The translations under genes were made by a program, and so were the position numbers. The notes under the pieces are model-generated. The model was not told the origin of the DNA. It saw nothing but the letters and a program-made list of their open reading frames with translations, and ran no database searches. From positions 1,860,001 through 1,924,000 of the forward strand of contig NZ_JMQM01000001.1 in NCBI RefSeq assembly GCF_000733725.1: a DNA stretch of 64,000 nucleotides. The letters are read 5' to 3'. This document shows positions 34,303 to 61,314 of this stretch, piece by piece. Within the stretch, counting starts at the first letter, position 1, and every line of letters starts with the position of its first letter. This DNA comes from Nitratireductor basaltis (GTDB lineage: Bacteria > Pseudomonadota > Alphaproteobacteria > Rhizobiales > Rhizobiaceae).

Positions 34303-34376
34303 TGGGGAATAGGTTAACGGTAGACCCGCGGACTCTGACTCCGTTAGTCCTGGTTCGAATCCAGGTTCCCCAGCCA
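34303..34376 (+). tRNA. tRNA-Gln, anticodon CTG
   Basis: The acceptor stem TGGGGAA pairs with TTCCCCA, followed by discriminator G and an encoded CCA. The anticodon stem GCGGA/TCCGT holds the loop CTCTGAC with anticodon CTG. The T arm is TGGTTCGAATCCAG. The 3' end is a common integration target, and an integrase begins 159 bases downstream in the same direction. Confidence 0.95.
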
Positions 34377-34535
34377 TTTCGCACGTCCGCAGTTTGGATT
34401 CATTGAAGAATTCGTTCTGTGCGAATCCTCCAGAGCAGTGTTTTTGCCGATTTTGCCCTCTGTGCCCAAAACTGTCGCACAGGACTGCTGCACATGGCTG
34501 TGCACGTCCTGCGCCAAGCGCACAAGGATTCGGTC

Positions 34536-36749
34536 ATGGCAGCACGGCATCGCATCGCCAATCTCACCCGCCGCGGCAATGTCTTCTACTGGCGCGCAAG
34601 GATCCCTTCAGCCCTTGCGATCGACCAGCGTAGCCACCTCGCATTGTCACTGCGCCACGGGGATCATACAAAGGCCAAAAGCATGGTCCGGCGGCTCAAC
34701 ACGCTGCTGGCGGAACTGGCCGAGAATGACAGGGCGCGCATGACAAGCCGCGAACAGCTGGACGAGATTTTTCGCGCTGAGATCGAGCGCATGAATGAGA
34801 GCCTGGAGGATCTCGCCTTCGCCGCACGCCGCACGGGCTCGGCGGCGGAAGACAATCTGCGCGCCGACATCCTGGTCGGCTGGGCCTATCGCCTGATCGA
34901 GTTGTTTGGCACGGGCCGCCCGATGCGCTTCGACGCAAGCTGCCCAGCCCGTCGCGTTCTCGAACAGGCAGGTTTCGCAGAAAGCCAGATCAGCGAGATT
35001 GCCGCGACCTTCGAGCAGGAGCGGAAAGAGTGCCGCACGGCCTATTTCGAAGGCTTCCTCAAGTCTGAGATGGACGCGCATGGCCTTAAGGACACGCCAT
35101 TGAACCGCGAACGGGCAACGCAGCAGATCATGCGCGCCAAGGCAGATGTGCTGCTGGGTGCGCCTGATCGCTATGGTCCTCTAAGCACGGGCAGTGATGT
35201 GGCGGCGCTGTTTGGCGAGCCGACGCAGCCGCAAACATCTTCCCTGGAAGCCGCGCCGTTGCCAGCGCCTGCTACAGCCAGCCCAACCCAGGACGAAGCG
35301 CCCGCAAGGGCCCTCCTCTCGCTGGAACAGACGCATGCGCCGCAGACGCAGGCAACAGAATCTGCGCCTTCCGTCAGCGCGCCTGCGTCACCCGCGCCGG
35401 ACTTCGCCATTCCGCAGCAGCCTCAGCCCGCACAAGCACCAGCACCGGAAGTCATTGAACCCGCCACCCAAACACCGACCGCTCCTGTTATTGATGACGA
35501 AAAAGGCGTGGATCTGCCGCTGTCGCAGTTCATCACGGAATGCGATGCGCTGATGAAGAGCAACCAACATCATTGGGAGGATGCCACCGCCAAGGACGTG
35601 AAGGTCGCGGTCACCATGTTAGTGGGCGTGCTGGAGGAACAGGGCATTACCCATTCAAGCCAGATGCGACAGATCCATCTGGGCAAACTGAGGGAACATT
35701 TCGATCACATCCTGACGAATTACGGTCGCAGTCCGCGGTTGCGGTCTCTTGGCACGGCAGACCTGCGCGCTGCCTCAGCAGAAGCCGTGAAATCGCATGT
35801 GGATGCAGGCAAGGAACCGCCGAAACTGGGGCTAGGCCCGACGACAATCCGCAAGCACCTGGCCAATATCAACACTTTCCTCACCTATATCAAAGGCCGC
35901 GGCTATCACGTGCCGAACCTCACCATGGATGGGTTGCGGCCCAGGAAGCCGAAACTGAGCGATGCGCGCCGCATCACGGACAAGCCGGGGCCCGAACAGC
36001 TGCGACCGATGTTCGACATGCCGCTGTTTACGGGCTGCAAGAGTGCGACGGAGCAGGAGGTGGCGGGGCCGCATGTTTTTCACTCGGCCAACTATTTTCT
36101 GCCGATGCTCATGGTGTATCTCGGGCCTCGGCGCGCTGAGGTCGCAGGGTTAGCAGTCAAGGACATCGTCAAGACGGCTCAAGGCTGGGCGATCGACATC
36201 CGCCCGAACAAATTTCGCAGCCTCAAGAATGCGAGCTCGGCGCGGATGCTGCCAGTGCCTGATGAAGTTCTGCGGTTGAACTTCATCGACTATGTCGAAG
36301 CGATCAAGGCGCTGCGCTACGACGCGTTGTTCCCGGAGCTCTTTGCCAAAAGCCGCAGAACCGATCCGGGTGACCGCTTCTACAAGGATTTCGTCCCCAA
36401 GCTGCACCAACATCTCGGTGATGCCGAACGCTGGAACCGCGTGCTGCACGCTCTACGCCATGGATTTGCAGACACCCTGAAACAGGCGCTCGTCCACCCA
36501 AGCATCATCAGCGATATTGCGGGCCGCCTCGGAAACGACGAGACCAGCATGCGCTACACGAATCGCGCGGGGCTGAATGTGATCAAAGATGCGCTGCAGA
36601 AATATCCGAGCGTCACAAACCATTTGGAACCGCAACCGATCAGGTTGCTACCTTGGGTGGAGGCACAAGAACCGTCACCTTGGGAGGGGCGAAGCAGCGC
36701 ACATCGTCTACAGGAGGCTAGAGCGAAACGGAAGCGCCCAAAACGATAG
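34536..36749 (+). CDS. large tyrosine recombinase (integrase) at tRNA-Gln
   Basis: 737 aa from the ATG at 34536 (MAARHRIANL), which has AAGGA eight bases upstream. The frame stays open to a GTG at 34419. Domains: an N-terminal DUF6538-like segment (LTRRGNVFYWRARIPSAL); a long helical region; a Pro/Ala/Gln-rich disordered linker (about 245-350); a core-binding domain; and a catalytic domain with the first Arg in YLGPRRAEVAGL, the H-x-x-R region in LHALRHGFADTLK, and the nucleophile Tyr in MRYTNRAG. All expected catalytic residues are visible, so it may be active. It starts next to the tRNA in the same direction, as integrases of genomic islands do. Confidence 0.9.
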   Translation: MAARHRIANLTRRGNVFYWRARIPSALAIDQRSHLALSLRHGDHTKAKSMVRRLNTLLAELAENDRARMTSREQLDEIFRAEIERMNESLEDLAFAARRTGSAAEDNLRADILVGWAYRLIELFGTGRPMRFDASCPARRVLEQAGFAESQISEIAATFEQERKECRTAYFEGFLKSEMDAHGLKDTPLNRERATQQIMRAKADVLLGAPDRYGPLSTGSDVAALFGEPTQPQTSSLEAAPLPAPATASPTQDEAPARALLSLEQTHAPQTQATESAPSVSAPASPAPDFAIPQQPQPAQAPAPEVIEPATQTPTAPVIDDEKGVDLPLSQFITECDALMKSNQHHWEDATAKDVKVAVTMLVGVLEEQGITHSSQMRQIHLGKLREHFDHILTNYGRSPRLRSLGTADLRAASAEAVKSHVDAGKEPPKLGLGPTTIRKHLANINTFLTYIKGRGYHVPNLTMDGLRPRKPKLSDARRITDKPGPEQLRPMFDMPLFTGCKSATEQEVAGPHVFHSANYFLPMLMVYLGPRRAEVAGLAVKDIVKTAQGWAIDIRPNKFRSLKNASSARMLPVPDEVLRLNFIDYVEAIKALRYDALFPELFAKSRRTDPGDRFYKDFVPKLHQHLGDAERWNRVLHALRHGFADTLKQALVHPSIISDIAGRLGNDETSMRYTNRAGLNVIKDALQKYPSVTNHLEPQPIRLLPWVEAQEPSPWEGRSSAHRLQEARAKRKRPKR

Positions 36750-36912
36750 GATGTCTGCCCAGAGTGTGGAAATGCTATTCCCGACTTTTCGCAGCTTGAA
36801 ATAGTAGTTGCAGTGCAGTACTGCCGCATTTGCTTGAACTTGTTTCGCGACGGTAGCCATCAAAGTCACACATCAATTTGCGTTAGCACAGTTAGCCTTT
36901 GGAGATTCTCCT

Positions 36913-39337
<2,425 letters not shown>

Positions 39338-39354
39338 TGGTTATTGGCAGCCCC

Positions 39355-43608: not shown

Positions 43609-43617
43609 TATTCAGCG

Positions 43618-46600: not shown

Positions 46601-47364
46601 TTAACGTTGTCGCGATGGGACACGGTGCGATCTGCATATCGGAAGCTGTGGCAAATGAACTCCGAAATTGGCTGGGGCAGAATTTTCCTCACCGCCTAGA
46701 GAATTTCCGCGTGGAGGTTGCGCATCTAGGAGCCGAACTTGATCGGGTCCAAGAAGCCTCTGAGGCATCTTCGCTGCAAGAAATAGCTCCTATTACCAAC
46801 AGGTGCAAGGGCTCTACCATGTTCTTGATGGTGGGAACATTGGAACCCAGGAAGGCTCACTCTGAGGTTTTAGCCGCTTTTGATAAACTGTGGGACGAAG
46901 GTGAGGATGCTCATCTTGTCATTGTTGGTAAAGTCGGGTGGAAAACTGAGCAGCTGACCCAGATCATAAAAGCCCATCCAGAGCTCAATAAGCGGCTGCA
47001 TTGGTATGATGGAATTAGTGATACTTTGCTACAAACGCTTTACCGTGAGGCAGATTGCCTCATCGCCGCGTCGAAGGGCGAGGGTTTCGGACTGCCATTG
47101 ATTGAAGCAGCACGAAATGACGTCCCCATCCTTGCTAGAAATATCCCGGTATTTCGCGAGGTAGCCGGAAATAAAGCGACGTATTTTAATGCTGATAAAC
47201 CTGAAGAGCTTTTTGAAGCTTTTCAGCGGTGGCTTAGGCAGTTTCGCTGTAACGAACATATCAAACCGAACGGAATGAGCTGGTTAAATTGGAGGCAGAG
47301 CGCGGAGCAATTTCTGTCAGCACTCATGAGAAACCGAAACGGCGAAAGAACCAACAGTGTTTGA
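43618..47364 (+). CDS. three-module GT4-type glycosyltransferase
   Basis: 1248 aa. Three GT-B units in one chain. Module 1 (about 1-410) starts MRIVIDLQSAQ and has the nucleotide-sugar motif LHEGFGLPALEAM (EX7E). Module 2 (about 422-800) starts KLAYVSPFPPEASGIADYS and carries RGETSAAVLDCLNHSIP, where the second Glu is Asp. Module 3 (about 857-1240) starts RQLLIDVSEIVQRDVGTGIQRVVRNIL and has SKGEGFGLPLIEAA (EX7E). Multi-domain rhamnosyl/mannosyl transferases such as WbdA extend O-antigens made by the ABC pathway. It likely polymerises D-rhamnose or a mannose-derived chain. Linkage cannot be read from sequence. Confidence 0.87.
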   Translation: MRIVIDLQSAQSSGSRNRGIGNYSLSLTKALIENGDEHDFHIVLNGSFTEAAIYLRNYFSELLPKENVHTWHPVAPAAYVDNSNDLNRHFSELTRETFINSLKPDILLITSFFEGFHDDSCITIGKLGKTYPVAVVVYDFIPLIYKNDYLANRKFRDWYTEKLGLLQEADLFLAISNSSRQEAVEIAALPPERCVTVSTDASDVFRPVPTSAKAVQETLRKYGINKKFVLYTGGIDFRKNVNGLIAAYSKLTSPVQDEHCLVLVCAVRPEDRSVLEAYATRHGVREGDIIITGFVSDEELNALYSSCSLFVFPSLHEGFGLPALEAMRCDAPVIGSNTSSLPEVIGMKEALFDPRDLNSMRSIIEKALTDHDFRKALIDNSRAQAKLFSWDRTAQATLDVFSGCTISHVTIDSYARSEEHPKPKLAYVSPFPPEASGIADYSADLVASLSAFYEIDIITPQKDISDLPSLRNIAIKTPDYLLSHPDHYDRILYHFGNSVFHQHMFDMLNRIPGVVVLHDFFLSGIIAHMDSTGFRPSLFAETLYYSHGYTAAKELCEHQDRSEVIYRYPCNLPVLQKSTGIIVHSNSTSLMLDKWYPLKTKRWAEVPLLRTPPLERCGKTSAKRALGFGASDFLVCSFGMIGITKQNLRLLDSWLASNLSIDRSCYLIFVGENDPGGYGAQMLRRIEDSNVADRIIVTGRVSKDVYQGYLNACDLAVQLRTMSRGETSAAVLDCLNHSIPTIVNANGSMADLPTETVFRLSDEFENRALVAGLEELYSNEAARGLLGTKGKELVASEHEPEYCAKLYHTHIERFYAESARDWPGLIDHIEHEERSLSVDEMMHISRAWGKTFPADTRQRQLLIDVSEIVQRDVGTGIQRVVRNILFQFLELATPEFRIEPIYGSPEHGYRYAREFSSRLFGIDNVSLRDEPVDYYNGDIFFGLDYQPHVQIFHESWYKKLQAQGVEVYFTVYDLLCINCPEYFVEGADALFERWLNVVAMGHGAICISEAVANELRNWLGQNFPHRLENFRVEVAHLGAELDRVQEASEASSLQEIAPITNRCKGSTMFLMVGTLEPRKAHSEVLAAFDKLWDEGEDAHLVIVGKVGWKTEQLTQIIKAHPELNKRLHWYDGISDTLLQTLYREADCLIAASKGEGFGLPLIEAARNDVPILARNIPVFREVAGNKATYFNADKPEELFEAFQRWLRQFRCNEHIKPNGMSWLNWRQSAEQFLSALMRNRNGERTNSV

Positions 47365-48577
47365 ACGCGTATTCAATGCGAAAGATAACGTAATGTACCC
47401 CCGTCGAGGATCAAGCTCTGAGGAAGAGACTTCTATTGATCGTAATCGTGCCGCAATATTTCACGATTATTTCTCCATAAAAGGTGGCGGCGAGAGAGTA
47501 GCTTTGTCTATTGCAAATGACTTAGGATATCACCTTTACTATGGGTATTTAACATCTTCTACGTACAGCCTGCAGGCTTTCCCAGATAATTCTCATTCTT
47601 TGAACCTGCACCCGCTAGTCCAAAGGAGAGGTTTGAGGCCGCTTACCCTCAGTTACCTTTTTCGCAGAGCGCGGCGCATTGCATCTCAGTATGAGTTACG
47701 CATATACTCGGGCGTTGCGGCTCCTTTTGCGGCACCTCCGCTTGGCTCGTCGGGGCTGAATGTCTTTTACTGTCATACACCGCCGCGGTTTCTGTATGAT
47801 CAAAAAGCGCATTTCCTCAACCTTCTTCCAAACCCACTTCGCTGGATAGCGCCATGGATTCTTCGCAGGTTCGAGAAAGGTTATATTGATGCCATTAATA
47901 ACATGGACATTATTATTGCGAATTCCGAAAATACTAAAATCAGACTCAGAGAATACATAGGCGTAGATAGCAGGGTTGTATACCCGCCCGTAGATACTGA
48001 ACGTTTTAAATGGCAGGGACAGGGGGATTATTACGTATCAACTGCTAGATTATCGCCCCTGAAGCGCGTAGATAGAATTATAGACGCCTTCTCTGCTATG
48101 CCGGAAAAGAAATTGATTGTTGTGTCGGGCGGCGAAGAATTGGATAGGCTACGTAGTCGTGCGAAGAATTTTTCAAATATTGATGTTCTGGGATGGGTCA
48201 CCGAAAGCGCTCTGGAGGACATAGTAGGAAACGCTATTGCTACTATCTATATACCTAAGGATGAAGATTTCGGCATATCGCCTCTGGAATCGATGGCAGC
48301 AGGCAAGCCAGTGATTGGAGTAGCTGAGGGAGGACTCCGTGAAACGATAATTGATGGTGAAACGGGGATCCTCTTGCCTTCATCTCCTACTAGCCGAGCT
48401 ATCGTTGAAGCAGTTCGCTCGCTGAACTCTACAAGAGCTTTGCAAATGAGGCGCGCATGTGAGCAACAGGCGCAGAGATTCCAAAGAGAAAAATTTGTAG
48501 AGGCGATGTCAGGTATTATTCAAGGCCTGCAGCCAAAGTTGCGCCGCGCTCCATCAGGAATCCACGTGCCTGATTGA
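47357..48577 (+). CDS. GT4 glycosyltransferase with disrupted 3' end
   Basis: 406 aa from GTG 47357, overlapping the previous gene by 8 bases; an ATG at 47393 (MYPRRGSSSEEE) may be the true start. GT-B fold: FHDYFSIKGGGERVALSIAN at the N-terminus, LNVFYCHTPPRFLYD, and DFGISPLESMAAGKPVIGVAEGGLRETI (EX7E region). WbpZ-like initiating or early D-rhamnosyl transferases have similar form. The last 10-15 codons, from LQPKLRRAPSG on, are antisense to an IS110-type transposase, so the native C-terminus was lost or replaced. The catalytic domain appears complete. Confidence 0.83.
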   Translation: MFERVFNAKDNVMYPRRGSSSEEETSIDRNRAAIFHDYFSIKGGGERVALSIANDLGYHLYYGYLTSSTYSLQAFPDNSHSLNLHPLVQRRGLRPLTLSYLFRRARRIASQYELRIYSGVAAPFAAPPLGSSGLNVFYCHTPPRFLYDQKAHFLNLLPNPLRWIAPWILRRFEKGYIDAINNMDIIIANSENTKIRLREYIGVDSRVVYPPVDTERFKWQGQGDYYVSTARLSPLKRVDRIIDAFSAMPEKKLIVVSGGEELDRLRSRAKNFSNIDVLGWVTESALEDIVGNAIATIYIPKDEDFGISPLESMAAGKPVIGVAEGGLRETIIDGETGILLPSSPTSRAIVEAVRSLNSTRALQMRRACEQQAQRFQREKFVEAMSGIIQGLQPKLRRAPSGIHVPD

Positions 48578-48818
48578 TCAGACGGGTACGGCTGTGCACC
48601 AGGCGCTCTCTGACGCGGTGCAAAGATTGCAGATCGAGCTGTTCTTCGGACTTCACCGCGACGAATGACATGGTTGGACGTGTGGCCGCTTCTGCGATCG
48701 CCTCGGCATCTCGGTTGTCGTTCTTGTGGACCTTGAAAATAGGGATGCACGTAAAGCGGCGACATCAGTCGCGGCTCGTGGCCTTGCGCGATGCAGAAGC
48801 GTCCGATGTGATGGGCAC
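48535..48818 (-). pseudogene. IS110-family transposase remnant, internal fragment
   Basis: Read on the minus strand from 48818, the frame gives HHIGRFCIAQGHEPRLMSPLYV, then shifts to KVHKNDNRDAEAIAEAATRP, FVAVKSEEQLDLQSLHRVRERLV and LINQARGFLMERGATL. This is the conserved middle part of the DEDD transposase. A frameshift after YVHPYF and the loss of the C-terminal half show that it is dead. It merges with the 3' end of the glycosyltransferase on the other strand. The first part of the same gene lies at 50021-50091, beyond the IS3 element. Confidence 0.8.
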
Positions 48819-48842
48819 TGACCTGCTCCCCTGAGATGTTCC
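48819..48842 (+). repeat. left inverted repeat of the IS3 element
   Basis: TGACCTGCTCCCC-TGAGATGTTCCC; the first 13 bases match the right end exactly and most of the next dozen match with one gap. Confidence 0.85.
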
Positions 48843-48883
48843 CGATTTTGGGTTAGCCTGTTCCTCAACGAAAGAGACAGGCG

Positions 48884-49150
48884 ATGGAACGGACGCGGTT
48901 CTCGGAAGAACAGATCATCCGCATTCTGAAGGAACATCAGGCGGGCATGACCCCGGCTGAACTGTGTCGCAAGCACGGCATCTCTGATGCGACGTTCTAC
49001 ACCTGGCGCAAGAAGTACGGCGGCATGGACGTATCGGACGCCAAGCGGTTAAAGGCGCTCGAAGAAGAGAATGCGAAGCTGAAGAAGCTTCTGGCGGAGC
49101 AGATGATGGATGTATCGACGCTCCGAGAGATGCTGACAAAAAACTTCTGA
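48884..49150 (+). CDS. IS3-family transposase OrfA
   Basis: 88 aa. Helix-turn-helix domain: RFSEEQIIRILKEHQAGMT, ELCRKHGISDATFYTWRKKYGG, followed by a leucine-zipper helix (RLKALEEENAKLKKLLAEQMM). It binds the IS ends. The frame ends in TKNF after a slippery heptamer, where a -1 shift leads into OrfB (TKKLLTLGSRRKAVSW). OrfA itself is intact. Confidence 0.9.
   Translation: MERTRFSEEQIIRILKEHQAGMTPAELCRKHGISDATFYTWRKKYGGMDVSDAKRLKALEEENAKLKKLLAEQMMDVSTLREMLTKNF
49138..49144 (+). other. programmed -1 ribosomal frameshift heptamer A AAA AAC
   Basis: It is in the correct frame at the end of OrfA (ACA AAA AAC). After slippage the ribosome reads straight into OrfB without a stop. This is the standard way IS3 elements make the OrfAB transposase. 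Confidence 0.8.
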
Positions 49151-49173
49151 CGCTCGGCTCCAGGAGGAAAGCT

Positions 49174-49994
49174 GTGAGTTGGGCGATCGAGATGAAGAAC
49201 TATCCGCAGCGCCGTGCCTGTGCCCTAGTTGGCATTGCGCCGCGCGTCTACCGATACATGTCCAGTCGGCCGGACGATGCTGCTCTGCGAGAACGTTTGC
49301 GGGAGCTGTCATCGGAACGACGGCGATTCGGCTATCGCCGTCTACATCTGCTTTTGAAGCGGGAGGGCGTCGTGGTGAATTGGAAGAAGCTCTACCGGAT
49401 TTGCAAGGAAGAGCGGTTGACGGTCCGAAAACGCGGTGGTCGCAAGCGGGCTGTGGGTACGAGAGCACCGATGGCGGTCCCGCAGGATCCGAACCAGAGA
49501 TGGAGCCTCGACTTCGTGTCGGACACGTTGCTCGATGGACGCCGTTTCCGCATCCTGTGTGTCATCGACGACTTCAGCCGGGAGTGCCTGGCAACGGTGG
49601 TCGATAACTCACTCTCGGGCGAACGCGTGGCTCGTTAGCTGGATGCCATTGCAGAACGGCGCGGCTACCCCTGCATGGTTGTCAGCGACAACGGAACGGA
49701 GCTGACGTCAAAGGCCATGCTCGCCTGGCAACAGGACCGCAATGTCGAGTGGCACTACATCGCACCAGGCAAGCCGATGCAAAACGGCTTCGTTGAAAGC
49801 TTCAACGGAAGGCTTCGGGACGAATGCCTCAACGAGCACCTGTTCCGCAGCTACCGGCATGCCAGAGAATCATCGAGGAATGGAGGATCGACTACAATTT
49901 GAACCGACCACACACGAGCCTCAAAGGGCTCACCCCGCACGAGTTTGCAACCCGGTGCAAAATGGACCACAACGTGAACAGCGCTAGCCTATGA
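49174..49994 (+). pseudogene. IS3-family transposase OrfB, interrupted
   Basis: rve/DDE integrase core. RFGYRRLHLLLKREG and RWSLDFVSDTLLDGRRF with the first Asp are followed by a premature TAG at 49636-49638. The frame continues beyond it as [24 protein letters not shown] and [19 protein letters not shown] with the second Asp and the Glu. A further frameshift lies near 49865-49872, after which [20 protein letters not shown] follows. One substitution (GAG to TAG) and one indel separate it from an intact gene, so the loss is recent and the element cannot move by itself. Confidence 0.9.
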
Positions 49995-49996
49995 AT

Positions 49997-50020
49997 GGGT
50001 ACATTCCGGGGAGCAGGTCA
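49997..50020 (-). repeat. right inverted repeat of the IS3 element
   Basis: Read on the minus strand it is TGACCTGCTCCCC-GGAATGTACCC, matching the left repeat. Confidence 0.85.
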
Positions 50021-50091
50021 CTCCGTTCGTCCAGACCCACAACGCTGTAGATCGTCTTTCTAAGATCGATACCAAGAACCGCAATAACCAT
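50021..50091 (-). pseudogene. IS110-family transposase remnant, N-terminal fragment
   Basis: It starts at the ATG at 50091 after AAGGAG and reads MVIAVLGIDLRKTIYSVVGL before being cut by the IS3 element. The pattern GIDL...SVVGLD is the conserved N-terminus of IS110-family DEDD transposases. About 40-50 residues are missing between this and the fragment at 48535-48818, so sequence was lost around the IS3 insertion. The stretch 50092-50213 looks like the IS110 non-coding end. Confidence 0.75.
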
Positions 50092-50213
50092 CAGGATGCT
50101 CCTTCTTTCCACCATCTCACCGCGACGATAGCCGCGTTTGGGGTGGGAAGGCAGTTCATCCCATTAAGTCAGTTGCACCACAGTTCAATGCAATCCAAAT
50201 CTACTAATAACTC

Positions 50214-51323
50214 TTATGCGCGCTGCGCGGCTCGTTCACAAACCTGATGATAAACTTCAGTATAATTTTGAGCCATTACTCCAGCGTGAAAGCGCTGCAG
50301 AAACCGCCTCCGAGCGGATGTGCCCATCTTCTGGCGAAGGATGCGATCCGACAACAAGCGTCTCATTGCATCCGCCAAAGCTTTGGAGTCAGCTGGCGGA
50401 ACCACGATTCCTGTCTCTCCATGCGCATTCACAAAACTAGTTCCTGTTCCTATCTCGCAGGAAATCATTGGCTTTCCTGCCCGTGCCGCTTCTACCAATG
50501 CAATGCCGAAGGCTTCTGACCGCACATGTGACGGCAGAACAAATCCAGAACATAACGTAAGAAGCGCCTCTTTCTCCATCTCTGTCACCTCACCCAAGTA
50601 CACTATGTTCTCAGGCAGCGACCTTAGATCTAGTCTGAGATCTTGATTTTTACCTGCGATCACCAAAGGCAGCTTGGTTGCGCGAGCCGCTTGTAGAAGA
50701 TAGTTAATCCCTTTGTAGTATCGGAGTGCACCTACGAACAGTATAAAGCCTTCGCCGACTTTTGCGCGCATAGCAGACAGTATTCCCGCAGGTACATCTT
50801 GACGCTCTGGTAATCCAATTGGAATTACTTGTGTCTGCAGTAACCGTTTTTGCAGAACGCAACTCGTCTGCCTATAAGCGGGCGAAGTCGCGACTATTGC
50901 GTCCATTCTGTCCAGAAAGGCATTCATTAGAGGATTGTACAGCCACATGTGCCGGCGCTGCCGAACGATATCCGAATGATAGGTAAGAACAGACGGCTTG
51001 CTGATTCCAGAAACCAAATGCATTATGTCGGCAATCGGCCACGGAAAATGATAATGCACAACGTCAGCGTCACTAGAGAGCGATTTGAATTTAGATAAAA
51101 TAGATAAAGATATACTTGTTGAGGAAATTCTAAAGTTTTGCTTAACCTGAAATACTTTGTGATTACTAATTTTTATTGCATTTTTACTTGGATGCGCAGA
51201 AGGCGCTAGTACCTCATGATGAAAACCCCTCTTGTAAGTTGATTCTGCTAGCGTGTGAATGAAACGAGGTACTCCCGTCACGTCGTCGGGATAATAAGTT
51301 TTATACACATGCAAAATTTTCAT
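50214..51323 (-). CDS. GT4-family glycosyltransferase
   Basis: 369 aa from the ATG at 51323 (MKILHVYKTYYPDD); the open frame runs further upstream to 51407 with unrelated sequence. GT-B fold: TGVPRFIHTLAESTYKRGFHHEVL at the N-terminus, ILFVGALRYYKGINYLLQAA, and the EX7E region SEAFGIALVEAARAGKPMISCEIGTGTSFVN. It is AT-rich like the manC cluster and is probably part of the same polysaccharide locus, separated and possibly inverted by the IS events. It may add a side residue or a core-linking sugar. Confidence 0.85.
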   Translation of the reverse strand: MKILHVYKTYYPDDVTGVPRFIHTLAESTYKRGFHHEVLAPSAHPSKNAIKISNHKVFQVKQNFRISSTSISLSILSKFKSLSSDADVVHYHFPWPIADIMHLVSGISKPSVLTYHSDIVRQRRHMWLYNPLMNAFLDRMDAIVATSPAYRQTSCVLQKRLLQTQVIPIGLPERQDVPAGILSAMRAKVGEGFILFVGALRYYKGINYLLQAARATKLPLVIAGKNQDLRLDLRSLPENIVYLGEVTEMEKEALLTLCSGFVLPSHVRSEAFGIALVEAARAGKPMISCEIGTGTSFVNAHGETGIVVPPADSKALADAMRRLLSDRILRQKMGTSARRRFLQRFHAGVMAQNYTEVYHQVCERAAQRA

Positions 51324-51634
51324 AGCGAACGACCCTTTTCCGCCAAGTACCCGCAAGCGGCGTGCACTAGCACTGTCACAGATCTCGTTTAACGACAGCA
51401 GGAACAACTCCGCTACTACAAGGCGTTCATCTGCATCACCCTGTCGCGTCGTGGTGCGCCACAGTCACTCGCCCTGCTAGAAGACGCAAGGTCGCGCACA
51501 GTTCCACCTGCGATCGCTGCTCAGATACCGAATAGACTATTGTAGTGCGCCCTTCCTGAGGTAACTAGCATGCGAGTATCTACTGTTCCAGCACTCCATC
51601 CCAATGAAACTTGCGTTGGCTATACGTCACTTCG
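51324..51634. other. intergenic region, no supported gene
   Basis: About 310 bases between the glycosyltransferase and the ATPase gene, both leftward. On the minus strand an open stretch (51323-51470) reads QGDADERLVVAELFLLSLNE, which looks protein-like but has no start and no family that I recognise. It could be the tail of a gene truncated by recombination. It must contain the promoter of the glycosyltransferase. Confidence 0.4.
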
Positions 51635-54061
51635 CTACCTCGCAGGTTCCCGCATATCATCGAGCGTTTGTGTGAGCAGATCGCCTTCAAGCGTTCCTTG
51701 TGCGATCAGCGCTTTAGCAACACGTTCAATCGCTTTAGCGTTTAGCCTCACTAGTGCAAGTGCTTCGTCATAAGCATCATCTAGACGTGCGCTGACCCGC
51801 GCTTTCAGGTCTGCGTCGTTTGCAAGAGCGTCTTCCCACCCATCCGCCGAGTGGTAGACTAACGGCTGAACCTTCCCGGCTCCGACTGACGCTTCCAGTA
51901 TAAAGGAAAGCACTGTCGCTTGAGCGAGGTCGGAGTGCGGACCACCGCCTGCACCGAGTGTTGGCGCGCCGAACGTGACCTCTTCGGCCGCACGACCTGC
52001 CAAATTGCACAGGATCCGGTTCTTTAGCCCTTCCTCGTGGTGCAAAACGTCGGGATTGACTGATGAGAGGGTATAAGGCCTTCCACCCGATCCTTCAATT
52101 GTTACCAGTTTGACCTCGGCTACACCCGTCAGCGTGCGTGCCACAACATGGCCAGCCTCGTGCACTGCAAAACGGTAGCGAAGCTCATCATCCAGGACGG
52201 GCAGATGATCCCGGAGTCGCGCCTCAACGTCATCGAGCGACAGGTCACGACGCTCACGGCGTGACCTCTGACGCGCTTCTCGCACCAGCCGTTCAATGTC
52301 TGCTCCGCTCATACCACTGGCTCTCCGTGCGAGACGCAGAAGCCGCTGTTCCATGTCTACTCCCTCAATCGCGAGATGGCGCTTGAGGTGGTGCCGCAGG
52401 ATGCCTAGTAGTGCCTTCGTGTCAGGCAGCGGGATCTCGATGTGTGTCTCCAAGCGGCCGGAGCGTACTAAAGCTCGATCCAGCAGCTCAGGCTGGTTGG
52501 TTGCGCCGACGATGATCACCCCTTCACGTGCGACGGCACCATCAAGAAGCTCCAGTGCCTTATTGATGAACGAATTCCAGTAGGAGCTGTCACGGTCTTT
52601 GTGCCCTCCTCTGGTGCCAAGGCCATCGATTTCGTCGATGAAGAGGACGATTGGGCTGTTCCGCTCCGCCTCCTCGAAGGTTGTGCGTACGCGCTGCAGC
52701 ACCTCTCCGAGTGCGCTGGGCTCAAGCCAGGTTGAGACGGATGTTGCAAGCAGAGGCAGCTGAAGCGAATTTGCCAATGCTTTGGCAAAGGTCGTTTTGC
52801 CCGTTCCGGGTGGCCCATGGAGCAGGAGGCGCGTGATCATATCCGACCATTGGAGCTGGCCTTCGCGCCACAGAGTGAGATCCTCTTTTAGCGCCAGAGC
52901 CCACCCCGCAGCTTCGCCATAGCCAGAGAGAGCTTCTACCCGCAGCGCGTTCTCATCATCCGGAGCAGCTGGTTGAATGAGTTCACCACCTGTATCTGCA
53001 GTTCTGCCGTGCGATGAGGGAGAGTTGCGAGCACTCTTCTTGCTCTGAGAGGAGTGTTTTTCAGGTGGTTGGGCAATCTTTGCCTGAAGCCGCTTGAGGA
53101 CCTCCGAGCCGCTCATGCCAGGGCGGATGCACCAGAGCAGATCGTCCAGAGACAGCATTTTGCTCTTTTCTGGACTCACTGCATCCAGCACATCCAGATC
53201 ACCTGCCGCGCCGATCACATGCCGCGCAACGTCTCTCAGGAGTTCAGGCGACAGAGGCTGGCAGCTGAGCGTGAGATCAGCCGACTGCACCAGTCGCTGT
53301 GGCAGGAGATCAGGCTGATCGGCGATCGCCAGCAGAGGCAGCCCGGTAGTAGGTGCATGCTGAAGTCCCCGTGCCACGTCCCTCCTGGACATGTCATACG
53401 TCGCTTCAAGGAGGATCGTCAGTCGCGGTGAGTATGGCCGCATAACCGAAGGCGCTGACCAATCCAGACTGATACGATCGACTGGGATCATTGTGAGCGG
53501 ACGCGGCAGCAGGACGGCTCGACGCAGAAGATGCGAGCAGCATCGCTCGAACCCAGGAACGGCTCCTTTCAGAACGACAACAGGTCGGGGCCGTGACAGC
53601 ATGGCGTAAAGGTCCGACAGTGAATGGCCGCTGCGTACTGTGGCATCGCCAAGCATTAGGATGATCGCGATCTCTGCAGCCAGAGCAGGCTCCACTGCCT
53701 CGCGCACGGCGGCCAACAGCTGCTTCACTTGCGCTGCGTCAGCCCCCTCTTCATCGTCATCAGGCCCGATTCCCTTGTCCGTCTTTTTGCCGAAGACATG
53801 ATCTTCTTCCTCCCCGTCGAAAGCACGGTTTGCGATCACCTCCAGGCGCAGCTTCCGGCGCAGGCCGCCCTTCAGGAAAGTCTCGCTCTTGCGTCCCGGC
53901 GCATAGTGCACGGGCGCGCCCTCGCCCGCGGAGACGCGCTGAAGAACTTTCAGGTTAACCGCAGCTTGCAGCGCGTGCCTGTATGTCTGATGCCGCAGAC
54001 GTCGGAGCCAAAAGCGCACGAGGCGCTCGCGTGTCGGGGTGTGGGGAGAAGCCATACTCAT
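51635..54061 (-). CDS. soluble AAA+ ATPase fused to an M41 (FtsH-type) metalloprotease
   Basis: 808 aa from the ATG at 54061, which overlaps the upstream stop in ATGA. Residues about 1-400 are a region without Walker motifs, part of which (about 140-300) looks like a degenerate ATPase-like fold. The AAA module has Walker A GPPGTGKT (about 416), Walker B LFIDEID (Glu about 477) and the arginine segment DRALVRSGRLETHI. The C-terminal M41 domain has the zinc motif HEAGH (634-638) and the third ligand Asp711 in SDLAQAT. There are no membrane helices, unlike FtsH. All ATPase and protease residues are intact. It is the last gene of a three-gene operon. It is not a housekeeping FtsH; function unknown. 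Confidence 0.85.
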   Translation of the reverse strand: MSMASPHTPTRERLVRFWLRRLRHQTYRHALQAAVNLKVLQRVSAGEGAPVHYAPGRKSETFLKGGLRRKLRLEVIANRAFDGEEEDHVFGKKTDKGIGPDDDEEGADAAQVKQLLAAVREAVEPALAAEIAIILMLGDATVRSGHSLSDLYAMLSRPRPVVVLKGAVPGFERCCSHLLRRAVLLPRPLTMIPVDRISLDWSAPSVMRPYSPRLTILLEATYDMSRRDVARGLQHAPTTGLPLLAIADQPDLLPQRLVQSADLTLSCQPLSPELLRDVARHVIGAAGDLDVLDAVSPEKSKMLSLDDLLWCIRPGMSGSEVLKRLQAKIAQPPEKHSSQSKKSARNSPSSHGRTADTGGELIQPAAPDDENALRVEALSGYGEAAGWALALKEDLTLWREGQLQWSDMITRLLLHGPPGTGKTTFAKALANSLQLPLLATSVSTWLEPSALGEVLQRVRTTFEEAERNSPIVLFIDEIDGLGTRGGHKDRDSSYWNSFINKALELLDGAVAREGVIIVGATNQPELLDRALVRSGRLETHIEIPLPDTKALLGILRHHLKRHLAIEGVDMEQRLLRLARRASGMSGADIERLVREARQRSRRERRDLSLDDVEARLRDHLPVLDDELRYRFAVHEAGHVVARTLTGVAEVKLVTIEGSGGRPYTLSSVNPDVLHHEEGLKNRILCNLAGRAAEEVTFGAPTLGAGGGPHSDLAQATVLSFILEASVGAGKVQPLVYHSADGWEDALANDADLKARVSARLDDAYDEALALVRLNAKAIERVAKALIAQGTLEGDLLTQTLDDMREPAR

Positions 54062-54378
54062 GCCCCCTCTCCTGCGACAAGTTTCAGCTTCGGCCGATGC
54101 TGCTGGTCCGCGGTAAGCTGACCTCGCGAGGCAAGCCAATGCCATACGAGAATGGCAGTCGGATCGCCTTCGTCGACCATCTCCACGAGGCGGCACATGA
54201 CCCATTGCGCCATTTGTAAATTATGATGCCGCCCAAGCCGCGCCATCCGGATCGCAGCTCCTACGGCACCCGCTGACCTGTCGCGTCTATATGCACGTTC
54301 AAAGTGCGTCCCCTCGCGCAAATCTTCCACGCTCAAGCAGATGTCTCTGGAGATTTGGGGCAACTGATGTTCGTCCAT
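54058..54378 (-). CDS. small protein of unknown function, middle gene of the AAA-protease operon
   Basis: 106 aa. Mostly helical, with several charged segments (DICLSVEDLREGTHFERAYRR, AAIRMARLGRHHNLQMAQWV). No family is recognised. ATG at 54378; its TGA overlaps the ATG of the AAA-M41 gene, so the two products are translationally coupled and may work in a fixed ratio, for example as an adaptor or substrate-delivery protein. That role is inference. Confidence 0.65.
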   Translation of the reverse strand: MDEHQLPQISRDICLSVEDLREGTHFERAYRRDRSAGAVGAAIRMARLGRHHNLQMAQWVMCRLVEMVDEGDPTAILVWHWLASRGQLTADQQHRPKLKLVAGEGA

Positions 54379-54459
54379 GGCAAACGCCCTCCTGCCGCAG
54401 GCGATTTCGCCCGCGCTGATGAGTTGAAGTTGGAAGTCGAAGAGCGTGCTGGTGGCGCT

Positions 54460-55383
54460 TCAGGCGCGACCAGCGGGATCTATCGCGCCAATGCCACGCG
54501 CGTATCCGACGCGGATCGGCGGCATCGGCTCAACGACCACCTCTGCAGCCTCTTCGCCCTCGCTTTCCGGATCTTCACCGTCAGGGACGAGATAGTCGTC
54601 CGAGCTGCTCGTATCCGGCTCCGCAGGAGCAGTGACCAGCCGCTGGCAAAGCTGTTGCATCTCGTCCTGCACACGCTCGGCAAACATGGCTCGAAGCTTA
54701 AGCATAGCCCTGCCTGCGTATGGCAGGCGCAACAGCTCACCGACTTCTCTCAGGGCGAAGACACCACGCTCCTGCGCACTTTGCTCGTCGGACCCGTCGA
54801 TGATCGCGATATCGATCTCGGCGATCCCCTGCCTTCCCTGCTGGTGCAGCACATCGCCTGCGGTCAGAGCAGCCGCCATCATCTTCCGGCGCAACGTCTT
54901 TAGCTTGCTCTCCTGGTAGGAGGAGAGCGATCGCTTTACGTCGATGATGATTGCGCGGCGTGCGACCCGATCGAGGATCAGCAGGTCCGGCATGTAGCTC
55001 ATCTTGTAGTGAACATCTGAGCGAAGATGGATCGCCTCAAGCGCGTCCCAATCATTACGCTCAAGCAGCTCAAGTGCTGCAGGGACGATGGGCAGTGGCT
55101 CTGAGAGCTTGACCACACGCAGATCCGGACTGAGCGAAGCAAGGCGCTCCAGCCCCTGCTCAAGCAGAATGCCTTCGTGAAAGGTCACAGCTCGAACGAA
55201 ACTGTTCAGTTCAGCATAGCTGCCGAACACGTCGTCAGAGCGAGCGCTGCCAGCGCGGATGGCCTCCAGCGCCTGATCAATTAGGCCCGCAAGGATCGGC
55301 TCCAGCTCCGGAGCAACGGAAGGACTGCCAAGCGCAGCATGAGAGGTGGCGCTGCATGCGGCAGCACGATGAAAATGTGACAT
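54460..55383 (-). CDS. PD-(D/E)XK-like nuclease-fold protein, first gene of the AAA-protease operon
   Basis: 307 aa from the ATG at 55383, with GGAG nine bases upstream; the frame continues to 55467. The central part has the layout of a PD-(D/E)XK domain: a helix Glu at 70 (TFHEGILLEQGL), then MPDLLILDRV with P132-D133, a strand AIIIDVKRS with D148-x-K150, then a helix SSYQESKLKTLRRKM. The C-terminal tail is acidic and Glu-rich (SESEGEE-like, about 265-290). The residues fit a metal-dependent nuclease core, but the match is by motif only. It is 81 bases upstream of the small gene on the same strand. Confidence 0.6.
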   Translation of the reverse strand: MSHFHRAAACSATSHAALGSPSVAPELEPILAGLIDQALEAIRAGSARSDDVFGSYAELNSFVRAVTFHEGILLEQGLERLASLSPDLRVVKLSEPLPIVPAALELLERNDWDALEAIHLRSDVHYKMSYMPDLLILDRVARRAIIIDVKRSLSSYQESKLKTLRRKMMAAALTAGDVLHQQGRQGIAEIDIAIIDGSDEQSAQERGVFALREVGELLRLPYAGRAMLKLRAMFAERVQDEMQQLCQRLVTAPAEPDTSSSDDYLVPDGEDPESEGEEAAEVVVEPMPPIRVGYARGIGAIDPAGRA

Positions 55384-57850: not shown

Positions 57851-58582
57851 ATGTGCAATCTTTACAACCTCACGACAAGCCAGCAAGCGATCCGGGAATG
57901 GTCGCGGGCAATGCGGGATGTGATAGGCAACCTGGAGCCATCACTCAACATCTATCCTGTTTATCTGGCTCCCATTGTACGCGTGGGTGCTGATAGGGAA
58001 CGGGAGCTGGTGCGGATGCGGTGGGGACTACCTTCCTCATCCCAGGCTCTCTACAAAGCGGCATCGCGCCGCGCGGACAAGCTGCGCGCGAAGGGGAAGA
58101 CCGTGGACTTCGATGAGCTTCTGAAGATGGAACCCGACAGCGGCACCACCAATGTCCGCAACACGAATAGCCGCCACTGGAAACGTTGGCTCACCCCGGA
58201 GCACCGCTGTCTCGTCCCTTTTACAAGCTTCGCTGAACCCGCCCCTTCGCGGAAGATTGAGGGCCAGCGCACGCCAAATGCGTGGTTTGCTCTGTCCGAG
58301 GAGCGTCCGCTCGCTTTTTTCGCTGGCATCTGCGTCCCGCAATGGACAAGCGTGCACAAGATTCGGGAGGGTCTGGTGACGGTCGACCTCTTCGGCTTCC
58401 TCACTACCGAACCCAACTCAGTGGTAGCGCAGGTGCATGAGAAAGCCATGCCCGTGATACTGACGAATACGGAGCAGACAGAGATGTGGATGCGTGCGCC
58501 ATGGGACGAGGCCAAGGCCCTGCAGCGCCCGCTTCCGGATGCCGAACTTGTAGAGATCGCTGCTCCGGAAGCTACAGGCTGA
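57851..58582 (+). CDS. SRAP domain protein (HMCES/YedK-like)
   Basis: 243 aa. SRAP features: Cys2 directly after the start Met (MCNLYN), which forms the thiazolidine crosslink with abasic sites; Asn in [10 protein letters not shown]; Glu129 in VPFTSFAEP; His196 in [10 protein letters not shown]. These proteins shield abasic sites in single-stranded DNA. The residues are all present, so it is probably active. In island context it may protect DNA or act as a phage-type accessory factor. Confidence 0.9.
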
Positions 58583-58755: not shown

Positions 58756-59118
58756 CTAAACCTCATCATCACCATCTTCCACTGGAGCAGCATCTTCTTC
58801 TGCCCTCCACTTCTCTCGCAGGATATGCGTGCGATGACGAGGCTGCCAGCCCTGCTCATGCCGCTCGATGATCTCTTCGATCACCTGCTCCGTCTTCCGC
58901 TTGTCGAAGCCCTGAGCAACCAGTTCGCGCGTCACTAGATCCATGGCACGATCCAGCTTCTCGTAAGAGCCAGCCTTCACCGATTGCCTGACGATCACGT
59001 GCAGCAGCATACGGGCGATGTCATCCCTATGGGGAGAGCGCTCACGCAGCTTGCGCTCGCGCAATGCCTTCTGCCGCAGCCGCTGCTCCTCCAACCGCTG
59101 CTCGTAACTCTTAGCCAT
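58756..59118 (-). CDS. small charged protein of unknown function
   Basis: 120 aa from the ATG at 59118 with GGGGAGAGG upstream. The N-terminus is Arg/Glu/Leu-rich (SYEQRLEEQRLRQKALRERK), likely a long helix. The middle has helical pattern MLLHVIVRQSVKAGSYEKLD, and the tail is acidic (EEDAAPVEDGDDEV). It could be a DNA-binding or partner-binding accessory. No family is recognised. Sites A and B lie beyond its 3' end and site D lies in front of it. Confidence 0.6.
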   Translation of the reverse strand: MAKSYEQRLEEQRLRQKALRERKLRERSPHRDDIARMLLHVIVRQSVKAGSYEKLDRAMDLVTRELVAQGFDKRKTEQVIEEIIERHEQGWQPRHRTHILREKWRAEEDAAPVEDGDDEV

Positions 59119-59892: not shown

Positions 59893-61314
59893 ATGAAAGC
59901 AGACGCACAGATTGTTCCGGACTCCACACTCGCAACCACAGCGGACGGCCAGAAAATTGAAGTGGATTTCCGACAGCTCATCGGCCAGCACAGCGCGTGC
60001 ATCGCTCAAAGCGGCGGCGGAAAGAGCGTGCTCATGCGCAAGGCGCTCGAACTGGCTCTCGCCTCTGCATTGCCCGTCGTTGTGTTCGACGTGGCAAGCG
60101 AGTTCCTGGATCTATCGAAGGCCAGCCCCAATGGAATGTTGATCGTTGGCGGCGAACATGGCCACCCGGAGGTGACCTATAAGACTGCGATTCGGCAAAT
60201 CGAGTCGATTGCCAATGGCCGCGCATCTGTCATCTTTGATATCAGCACGCTCTCCAACAGTGAGGGCTCAACCGTGGTGCGTGAGGTACTCAATGGACTT
60301 ATGCGATTGCCAGGCGCACACCCGATGTTGGTCGTGCTGGATGAAGTGCATCGTTTCGCTCCAGAGCGTGGCACATCGCCGTCCAAAGATTCTGTAGCCT
60401 GGGTGGCAAAGGAAGGACGGAAAAAGGGCTACAGTCTGCTGATGGCAACACAGCGACTGCCGGATGTAGCGAAAGCCGTGGTGTCCCAGACTCGCAATAA
60501 GTTCTTCGGCCGATCCACGGATAGCAAGGATATTGATCGCGCTGCCAAAGAGCTCGGCAGGTCGGCGCGTGAACTCGCGTGCCTCGCCTCTCTGGAAGCG
60601 GGAGAGTTCGTGATCCAGGGCGCAGCCTTTGGCGGCTATCACCCGAAGGCCCGGATCCTCGCACCTATGACAGGCAGATTGGACAATACCCATGTGACGG
60701 AAAAGCTCTCCGTCCCTCCTGTACCGATCGACAGGGTGGTTGATGACATTCTCGCAAATGGAAGCAACAACAAACTTCCTCCTGCGCCTGATGAACCGCA
60801 ACCGAGGGCCTGCATTACCGCACCCGATCTCTATGCGGAAGCCTCTACCTCCGACGCTGCCGGATATGAGGATCTCGTTCTTCAACTTCTTCAGGCCTCA
60901 CCCGGCGGCCTTAGCAGCAAGCTGCTGGCGCTGCTCTGCGGTGCAACACCAAGAGACCGCGCACACGATACTGCGATCTTGCAGCTGATCGAACGCGGGA
61001 TTATCGCGAAGGACCGGACTGACAGATTGAGGCTTGCAGACGCAGATGCATCCTCGTCGTCGGGGGCTCGAAACACCGTGTTCCTGCAGCATCAGCTTGA
61101 TCGGCTGATCCGACAGCTGCCAACCGTGGAGCGGAGAGTTATACGCGCATTTCAAGCCACGGGTGGCGGCAGCCTGCAGCTGAATGAACTGCGAGACTTG
61201 ACAAGGATGTCGCGTTTTCGGTCAGCGACGCTTCAGCTTCATCGTCGCGGATGGCTTGTAAAGCGGAAGGATGTGTATCGTTTCCGCCCGGACCTGGCCA
61301 AACTGCTGGGCTAG
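59893..61314 (+). CDS. HerA-like ATPase (DUF87/FtsK-HerA superfamily)
   Basis: 473 aa. Walker A is AQSGGGKS (38-45); Walker B is MLVVLDEVHRFAPER (D150-E151); the arginine/sensor part GYSLLMATQRLPDVAKAVVSQTRNKFFG is characteristic of HerA-like hexameric DNA translocases. The C-terminal third, from about 320, is helical and winged-helix-like (LNELRDLTRMSRFRSATL). HerA proteins commonly pair with a nuclease (NurA), Sir2 or a DUF4297 effector; none is directly adjacent here. Preceded by AAAGG. It may act in DNA processing or defence. Confidence 0.87.
   Translation: MKADAQIVPDSTLATTADGQKIEVDFRQLIGQHSACIAQSGGGKSVLMRKALELALASALPVVVFDVASEFLDLSKASPNGMLIVGGEHGHPEVTYKTAIRQIESIANGRASVIFDISTLSNSEGSTVVREVLNGLMRLPGAHPMLVVLDEVHRFAPERGTSPSKDSVAWVAKEGRKKGYSLLMATQRLPDVAKAVVSQTRNKFFGRSTDSKDIDRAAKELGRSARELACLASLEAGEFVIQGAAFGGYHPKARILAPMTGRLDNTHVTEKLSVPPVPIDRVVDDILANGSNNKLPPAPDEPQPRACITAPDLYAEASTSDAAGYEDLVLQLLQASPGGLSSKLLALLCGATPRDRAHDTAILQLIERGIIAKDRTDRLRLADADASSSSGARNTVFLQHQLDRLIRQLPTVERRVIRAFQATGGGSLQLNELRDLTRMSRFRSATLQLHRRGWLVKRKDVYRFRPDLAKLLG

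Follow-up and report, generated by a model that had tools for sequence, protein, structure and literature searches.

A conserved operon of a PD-(D/E)XK-type protein and a soluble AAA-M41 protease on mobile elements, with a possible role in element maintenance or conflict

Gene organization at the locus

In the window, namely the whole stretch of 64,000 nucleotides analysed here, an operon is found which runs from a nuclease-like gene through a gene for a small protein to a gene for an AAA-M41 protein (Table 1). All three open reading frames lie on the minus strand in the order given by a preliminary description of this DNA. The first two genes are separated by a gap of 81 bp, and the last two are coupled, as previously proposed, by an ATGA overlap between the stop of P0002 and the start of P0001, with a purine-rich AGGAG just upstream. 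The mechanical ORF of the latter gene is 48 codons longer at its start than the 808-aa call used here. A further gene, P6, is split from the operon in the window by a porin-like gene and the SRAP gene. The neighbouring SRAP and HerA-like genes, which had been regarded as a fitting setting for a system, are both present; however, they give no support to that idea, since just three of the 106 loci contain the HerA-like gene and just one contains the SRAP gene, counts that each include the window.

Table 1. Features of the locus, with positions in the window
Feature	Position	Strand	Remarks
tRNA-Gln	34303..34376	+	beside the integrase; candidate attachment site
Tyrosine recombinase, C1 family	34419..36749	+	candidate island integrase; E 1.5e-193 to C1 profile
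P0001, AAA-M41 protein, 808 aa, soluble	51635..54061	-	N-terminal alpha/beta region, AAA+ ATPase, M41 zinc metalloprotease
P0002, small protein, 106 aa	54058..54378	-	no known family; between nuclease and ATPase genes
P0003, PD-(D/E)XK-type protein, 307 aa	54460..55383	-	assigned from motifs, model and conservation
SRAP gene	57851-58582		neighbour of the operon
P6 (P0006), basic protein, ~120 aa	58756..59118	-	co-travels with the operon
HerA-like gene	59893-61314		neighbour of the operon

The AAA-M41 protease and the nuclease-like protein

In Pfam, P0001 matches AAA (8e-32) and Peptidase_M41 (1.9e-13), both exceeding the cut-off, and its motifs are GPPGTGKT at residue 416, LFIDEID at 473, HEAGH at 634 and SDLAQAT at 710, where the Asp of the last is presumably the third ligand, as taken from FtsH. 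As the maximal 19-residue hydropathy is only 1.54, an FtsH-like membrane helix is not seen, and the earlier reading of a protease with intact Walker A and B, HEAGH and third Asp ligand but no membrane helices holds. HExGH (134/136) and Walker A (117/125) are nearly always intact among the relatives, and the AlphaFold model (pLDDT 83.2) agrees with FtsH across the AAA plus M41 region. The two domains are fused in the window and in some lineages, and are encoded by two genes in most relatives. Among viral sequences P0001 has one remote match, to the AAA part (L164, 28% identity). Though P0001 shares with FtsH the AAA+ and M41 domains, the intact Walker A, Walker B, HEXXH and third ligand as well as the fold, it differs in having no visible membrane helix and another N-terminal region, in being accessory and in adjoining a nuclease, and its score of 191 bits to the FtsH equivalog TIGR01241 lies far below the cut-off of 600.

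The motif residues of P0003 are E70/E75, Y130-x-P-D133 and D148-x-K150, of which Y130, P132, D133, D148 and K150 are invariant over 50 aligned rows, and the pattern PD..(D/E)xK is matched by 136 of 141 unique sequences. Pfam gives only a sub-threshold nuclease match (AHJR-like, E 0.023), and no solved structure is matched by sequence at E up to 1. The structure model (pLDDT 83.4) is built around an alpha-beta core, and in the fold search against the PDB the first 11 rows are what we take to be PD-(D/E)XK nucleases, all of them weak (best E 1.2e-3, no row at E <= 0.001, TM 0.2-0.4). A PD-(D/E)XK fold, as suggested in the preliminary description, is thus supported though not proven: the motif stands, while the predicted structure matches the fold only weakly. 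Compared with nucleases of this type (Bse634I, MunI, BstEII, the R2 endonuclease domain and NucC), P0003 shares the order of the motifs and a weak fold likeness; it differs by an operon without methyltransferase and by a C-terminal motif of its own, a conserved I-R-V-G-Y/F-A which follows an acidic disordered linker. No protease family is found by Pfam in P0002 or P0003.

Two ideas on the origin and evolution of P0003 were rejected. As to a viral origin, a search of 50,697 phage records gave no match at E 0.01, and the peptide patterns run against IMG/VR brought up no relative. A nuclease arms race with faster evolution was suggested by the copies within the window's own genome, which look mosaic, and was refuted by the wider set, where P0003 is the less divergent of the two proteins when set against the ATPase, with a median ratio of 0.71 in 415 pairs.

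Conservation of the unit and its co-travelling genes

Among 68 related named loci with sufficient downstream DNA, the nuclease, small-protein and AAA-M41 domains lie on one strand in fixed order in 66, which excludes a chance grouping, and the profile of the small-protein family is present in 67. The search for co-occurrence proposed earlier returned the same order nearly throughout, and the unit is conserved, with three parts here and four genes in most relatives. Of 394 genomes sampled within the window's family, 78 are matched by the nuclease profile at E 0.001, some of the matches being weak or partial; among 384 further genomes sampled across the class none is. The homologues are patchy, in some genomes multi-copy, and co-inherited with the AAA-M41 protein, with one exception (L156), where full flanks enclose a nuclease without recognised AAA-M41; in the genomes sampled, none was seen as a solitary gene of the core genome.

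The core trio previously noted is real, however it is not the whole unit, as two further genes belong to it: P6 and usually C0, a cluster upstream of the nuclease. Nuclease and P6 occur together in 67 of the 394 genomes, only one of them in 11 and 19, and neither in 297. The pairwise identities among the four core parts correlate with rho 0.86-0.92, those of P6 and C0 with the core at 0.75-0.82, and those of the recombinases, in smaller sets, at 0.40-0.66. C0 is absent from the window; in Pfam it gives a weak DUF3102 match (E 0.0063) in one of two members tested, and its identification as RepA was ruled out by sequences, orientation and Pfam.

Comparison with known systems

A comparison with PADLOC-DB 2.0.0 gave no match at E up to 1 for P0002, P0003 or P0006, and for P0001 only matches to general AAA parts. 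No PADLOC or NCBIfam model covers the unit, in agreement with the earlier statement that no named system has these parts, and in the portions of the literature available to our search no description of a matching system was found.

The closest parallel is given by AAA ATPases paired with a protease. IetS is subtilisin-like (S8), and ietAS is located close to repABC and acts against phages. PMC5006074 describes sgiAT as a toxin-antitoxin system which maintains or stabilises SGI1, with IetA and IetS as its homologues on pTiC58. The present unit is likewise an AAA ATPase with a protease carried by a genomic island or plasmid. However, its protease domain is Peptidase_M41, a zinc protease and not a subtilisin; AAA and M41 make one FtsH-type entity; and a PD-(D/E)XK-type protein, the small protein, P6 and C0 are added. 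The PADLOC IetA models cover only the AAA core of P0001, and the IetA family model NF042959 reaches 103 bits where its cut-off demands 510, again over the AAA core only. In the best reading, the unit may work like IetAS and SgiAT but lies outside their family.

Mobile setting and proposed function

In some soil bacteria of the Rhizobium group, the unit is carried either by repABC plasmids or by islands that also encode a recombinase of the tyrosine or serine type. Of the eight plasmid regions read, three have repABC within 3 kb. Tyrosine recombinases are found near it in 37 of the 68 loci, serine recombinases in 18 and neither family in 13, and the two never occur together in this set; in the other set, of 106 loci, one locus (L160) has both. 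The integrase of the window belongs to a recombinase family found near the operon elsewhere. The right end of the island is not fixed, since no direct repeats of at least 18 bases were found within 34200-63500 (seed 14) and a genome-wide search that allowed up to 2 mismatches gave a single copy of the tRNA-Gln 3' end.

Such a position suggests that the unit could guard mobile DNA or fight against competing DNA. We propose, with a probability of about one half, that it is a module for mobile-element conflict or maintenance in which a nuclease is controlled by a protease. More specifically, the AAA-M41 ring would be a dedicated ATP-dependent protease gripping the nuclease at the acidic, disordered part near the nuclease's C-terminus; the small protein would perhaps serve as an adaptor, and P6 and C0 would have regulatory roles. 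Nuclease activity would be held low as long as the element is present and undisturbed; if the protease were lost or overwhelmed, by loss of the element or by an invading phage or plasmid, the freed nuclease would cut DNA, and either cells without the element would die or the invader would be blocked. That the nuclease may be the substrate of the protease is inferred from the disordered acidic linker and the gene linkage. The proposal as a whole draws on the fixed order and co-inheritance of the parts, the mobile setting, the preserved active sites, the fusion of AAA and M41 in some lineages, the defence-type neighbours and partner exchange described below, and the precedent of sgiAT.

Several observations weigh against this proposal. 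The constant place on islands would also fit a role in mobility or regulation, and several copies in one genome argue against a strict exclusion of like elements. Moreover, the loci without either recombinase family, the lack of C0 in the window and the lack of AAA-M41 at L156 speak against the module.

Possible, though somewhat unlikely, is a defence against phages or plasmids with no part in keeping the island, where the nuclease would cut invading DNA and the AAA-M41 protein would degrade a protein of the invader or an inhibitor. In the neighbourhood check once suggested, recurrent clusters of defence-type genes (type I R-M, MmeI-type, Mrr, HNH, BrxC and PDC-S02 type) are nearby in 38 of 80 loci, a raw count without matched control which may only mirror island cargo. 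TIR and SIR2 genes near two AAA-M41 relatives point in the same direction, as does the exchange of nuclease-type partners among these relatives. However, the operon is constant while the defence genes vary, it tracks C0, P6 and a fixed island place, no PADLOC model fits and no phage counterpart of P0003 is visible in the records and peptide patterns searched. As the unit is constant on islands and the known defence genes vary, maintenance or control of the element is as plausible as phage defence.

In that exchange, more distant AAA-M41 relatives pair with other upstream genes, namely TnsA-like, GIY-YIG-type and annotated metallophosphoesterase. Seven aligned TnsA-like proteins of ~210 aa match an annotated TnsA-N protein (probability 90, E 1.5e-6). 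Among solved structures nothing convincing was found (best E 0.06, an unrelated enzyme), no Pfam family was found in the three tested, and the profile has two weak matches among 142 genomes of the class. D-x-K is missing from six of the seven, and this partner is TnsA-like and possibly inactive. The GIY-YIG label stems from the way two records are annotated and from T5orf172 matches below threshold; a third candidate (L170), annotated as hypothetical, matches no profile but one to which its own sequence contributed. The metallophosphoesterase label comes from the record annotation, and Pfam gives nothing at E 0.1. It may be speculated, as a rather doubtful extension, that the protease acts as antitoxin or guard: the nuclease would be constantly destroyed by its own AAA-M41 protein and freed on jam or removal, and AAA-M41 would be a reusable chassis whose nuclease-type partners (PD-(D/E)XK, TnsA-like, GIY-YIG-type and perhaps metallophosphoesterase) are swapped across Alphaproteobacteria, forming a class of mobile-element conflict systems.

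An improbable alternative is that the unit regulates or executes the mobility of the island, the protease removing a repressor so that excision or transfer follows and the nuclease nicking island DNA. The close linkage of recombinases in 55 of the 68 loci, with C0 and P6 linked too, is consistent with it, as are the plasmid copies with an annotated integrase ~5-6 kb away (L028, L033) or an annotated recombinase nearby (L029). However, one core goes with tyrosine recombinases, serine recombinases or neither, and the co-inheritance of recombinases is weaker than that within the core. Ordinary cytosolic protein quality control, found on islands by chance, would agree with the FtsH fold of the AAA-M41 part, but is hardly probable at all for a patchy gene, multi-copy in some genomes and tied to a nuclease, in a genome with a separate FtsH-like match (34% identity) elsewhere.

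Altogether, about one fifth of the sampled genomes of the window's family carry a relative of the nuclease, subject to the weak and partial matches noted above, and the unit combines intact nuclease-type and protease sites with varied recombinase types and lies outside PADLOC-DB 2.0.0. If the unit is a module for maintenance or defence, it would help to explain why repABC plasmids and islands with defence genes persist among soil and nitrogen-fixing bacteria, and it would offer an example, open to testing, of how genetic elements in conflict make use of an FtsH-type protease in the cytosol.

Anatomy of the operon and its AAA-M41 protein

The three ORFs of the preliminary description are all present on the minus strand of the window in the order and at the sizes described there (see the table), with 81 bp between the end of P0003 and P0002, while P0002 and the ATPase gene are indeed coupled by an ATGA overlap, ahead of which stands a purine-rich AGGAG stretch. 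The 808-aa protein has AAA and Peptidase_M41 domains, both over the Pfam cut-offs, and as described before, its motifs GPPGTGKT, LFIDEID, HEAGH and SDLAQAT are all intact, where the last Asp (SDLAQAT) is presumably the third zinc ligand as in FtsH, and no membrane helix is seen in it, the 19-residue hydropathy maximum being 1.54. Its AlphaFold model (mean pLDDT 83.2) matches FtsH across the AAA and M41 parts (e.g. 2ce7, TM by target at most 0.74). Judged by its sequence, it is not FtsH proper: no membrane anchor is seen, and the score is 191 bits against a cut-off of 600.

Coordinates of the operon, its surroundings and features of related loci
Feature	Locus	Coordinates	Strand or orientation	Remark
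P0003, nuclease-like (307 aa)	window	54460-55383	minus	ORF
P0002, small protein (106 aa)	window	54058-54378	minus	ORF
P0001, AAA-M41 protein (808 aa)	window	51635-54061	minus	ORF
P6 (P0006), ~120 aa	window	58756-59118		basic protein
HerA/FtsK-like ATPase	window	59893-61314
tRNA-Gln	window	34303-34376		directly before recombinase
Tyrosine-family recombinase	window	34419-36749	opposite to operon	E 1.5e-193
Glycosyltransferase-like genes	window	36900-51400		lower GC
Transposase-like ORFs	window	48884-49987		several short frames
~316-aa downstream family	L231	14160-15110		and relatives
~774-aa downstream family	L208	16033-18357		and relatives
Nuclease and M41 gene fragments	L034	12553-19528		C1, ~629.5-636.5 kb
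Two operon copies	L029	13894-29961		Pseudorhizobium plasmid
Region with AAA-M41 gene	L165	256-15530		Methylorubrum plasmid pCMU01

The probable PD-(D/E)XK nature of P0003

A PD-(D/E)XK fold for P0003 is well supported by sequence and model, though not proven. The profile libraries give only a sub-threshold AHJR-like match (E 0.023), and a search with a 50-row profile, run up to E 1, brought up no relative of solved structure. In the 50 aligned rows, E70, G71, E75, Y130, P132, D133, D148, K150 and R151 are invariant, and the PD...(D/E)xK pattern fits 136 of the 141 unique relatives. In the predicted model (pLDDT 83.4) both Glu lie on the long helix 56-82, D133 comes immediately before strand 134-138, and D148 and K150 are on strand 143-150. 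The top 11 rows of a PDB fold search with this model are PD-(D/E)XK nucleases, among them the reptarenavirus L endonuclease domain, R2 retrotransposon proteins, Bse634I and BstEII, with MunI, SdaI and NucC ranking lower; all of these we take to share the fold. All these fold matches score poorly (best E 1.2e-3, TM 0.2-0.4), and unrelated folds come next.

The C-terminus consists of an acidic low-confidence linker and then a conserved I-R-V-G-F-A-like motif. The strict form of this motif occurs in 69 of 77 unique sequences; of the remaining eight, one is truncated and seven carry what looks by eye like a close variant. Over the 45 residues ahead of the motif the median net charge is -11, with a negative value in 66 of the 69.

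Conservation and extent of the unit

With at most five candidates scored per genome, the P0003 profile matches, in some cases weakly or partially, at least 78 of 394 genomes sampled within the window's family (from 42 of 109 genera), which the named relatives indicate to be Rhizobiaceae, and none of the 384 other sampled genomes of the class. The plasmid collection contains 11 records with a relative of P0003; each comes from a rhizobial genus (Rhizobiaceae in the eight opened), and all fall among the 13 with a relative of P6. An eight-row alignment search confirmed 83 loci, the best 80 of which were taken; nearly all belong to Rhizobium relatives, Aurantimonas and kin, with three MAG contigs labelled Devosia (two) and Parvularcula (one, L207). 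The P0003 relative on the Parvularcula contig is 92% identical to the window's, and this contig is possibly mis-binned.

For 68 of the 80 loci at least 4.5 kb lies downstream of P0003, itself present by selection; here AAA is found in 68, M41 in 67, the small protein in 67, P6 in 66 and C0, a gene upstream of the nuclease in relatives, in 63. The genes form a conserved unit: the four core parts lie in order on one strand in 66 of the 68, with AAA and M41 in a single ORF in seven. Another set, which overlaps the first, comprises 106 loci picked by nuclease or ATPase matches (the window, 8 plasmid, 17 genome and 80 more genome loci, with a few duplicates). Here 87 loci have the four parts complete, and 94 have nuclease, AAA and M41; several incomplete loci are cut by contig ends, but L156, whose flanks are complete, carries only the nuclease. 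Pairwise identities co-vary most closely within the core (rho 0.86-0.92), a little less between the core and P6 or C0 (0.75-0.82), and least with the recombinases (0.40-0.66, fewer loci). Elsewhere in the window's own genome, nuclease and M41 fragments lie downstream of a second operon copy (L034), which suggests repeated insertion and decay, and a further copy is on a 7-kb contig, C4.

The unit is not limited to three parts as first described, for P6 and usually C0 go with it. P6 has conserved Q17, R21, P30 and R37, and of the 394 genomes 67 have both nuclease and P6, 11 only the nuclease, 19 only P6 and 297 neither (Fisher p 4e-46, which is optimistic because the genomes are related). C0 is a protein of ~400 aa; of two members examined, one resembles DUF3102 weakly. 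Its gene is mostly found 200-600 bp upstream of that for the nuclease; none is in the window. Two more genes recur downstream of the nuclease at nearly fixed distances, of ~316 aa (23/80) and ~774 aa (20/80), the latter matching no PADLOC model.

Mobile setting and neighbouring genes

Of the 68 loci, 37 carry a tyrosine recombinase from a single family, whose tested member resembles Phage_integrase and DUF6538 below threshold, and 18 a serine recombinase (Resolvase, 1.4e-27), none having both and 13 neither; both occur in L160 of the 106-locus set. Ppx/GppA lies 6.8-8.6 kb downstream in 9 of the 80 loci. In three of the eight plasmid regions read (L028, L029 and L033), repABC is no more than 3 kb away from the operon, and a gene annotated as integrase or recombinase lies at most about 6 kb from a copy. 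On the L029 plasmid each of the two copies is within ~3 kb of a repABC locus, and in the second an IS3 transposase gene stands in place of a listed M41 gene.

In the window, the recombinase and tRNA-Gln arrangement fits an island setting, and the opposite orientation of the recombinase is the common one among loci that have it downstream; a search for a duplicated att site gave none. About 14 kb of lower-GC DNA (about 46-55%) separates recombinase and operon, and its glycosyltransferase-like genes (P0007 confirmed by Pfam, others by eye) look like sugar-polymer cargo of the island. The transposase-like ORFs there, IS3 type by eye, are apparently degraded.

Genes of known defence types recur near the operon: type I R-M (two families), type IIG/MmeI, Mrr, HNH_2, PDC-S02, BrxC and DrmMI-like. 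Clusters so labelled, by one representative each (Mrr by likeness to a tested member, ResIII in three loci by eye), are near it in 38 of the 80 loci (32 if the HNH_2 cluster is left out), a count without a matched control which therefore shows context, not enrichment. The HerA-like neighbour noticed before is present, with relatives near the operon in only two other loci (L037, L043) of 106.

AAA-M41 relatives with other partners

Soluble AAA-M41 relatives of 35-43% identity have a wider distribution, being present in 12 of 198 other sampled genomes of the order, the same family included, at E 1e-46. A set of 42 such loci (L165-L206; 41 distinct, L185 and L197 being one gene; flanks short in the 16 from L191 on) was selected for likeness to P0001, regardless of the partner. 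In this set a TnsA-like protein of ~210 aa is directly upstream or overlapping in 14 (13 of 41 distinct), where seven of the loci built the profile and three entries reach only 22-31 bits. Other upstream partners are GIY-YIG-type (three loci, which built their own profile), a metallophosphoesterase by annotation (one locus) and a P0003-family protein within two genes (two loci, 33 and 43 bits), with no partner assigned in the remaining loci; except for P0003, these partner labels find little backing in Pfam. C0 or P6 relatives are near L175, L192 and L202. As the upstream partners differ, the ATPase-protease appears to be a common core with an exchanged partner. On pCMU01 the AAA-M41 gene lies amid TIR-domain genes, one S8 peptidase gene and two metallophosphoesterase genes (all by annotation).

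Known systems and a possible mechanism

The preliminary description knew of no named system with these three parts, and in fact PADLOC models match none of P0002, P0003 and P0006; no published description was found in the literature covered, which is mostly outside subscription journals and without bioRxiv preprints. From its predicted products the operon is not IetAS, which has a subtilisin in contrast to the M41 here, and the IetA-family score is far under the cut-off. A simple antitoxin role of the ATPase towards the protease is unlikely, since AAA and M41 make up a single FtsH-type machine and in the window even a single chain. It is more economical that the AAA-M41 machine probably controls the nuclease. 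The make-up of the unit and its inheritance are shown, whereas a substrate relationship, toxicity and a biological role are what we infer, as follows: the disordered acidic tail of P0003 may be the handle for the machine, the small coupled protein may be an adaptor, and P6 and C0 may be regulators; once the protease is lost or overloaded, the nuclease would be freed, serving element maintenance or defence against incoming DNA. Such maintenance of an element is reported for sgiAT, which keeps SGI1 (PMC5006074). Altogether, the operon belongs with the AAA-protease modules of mobile elements, and maintenance or element-level conflict is favoured over simple cargo defence, itself still plausible, because the operon position is constant while the defence neighbours are variable.
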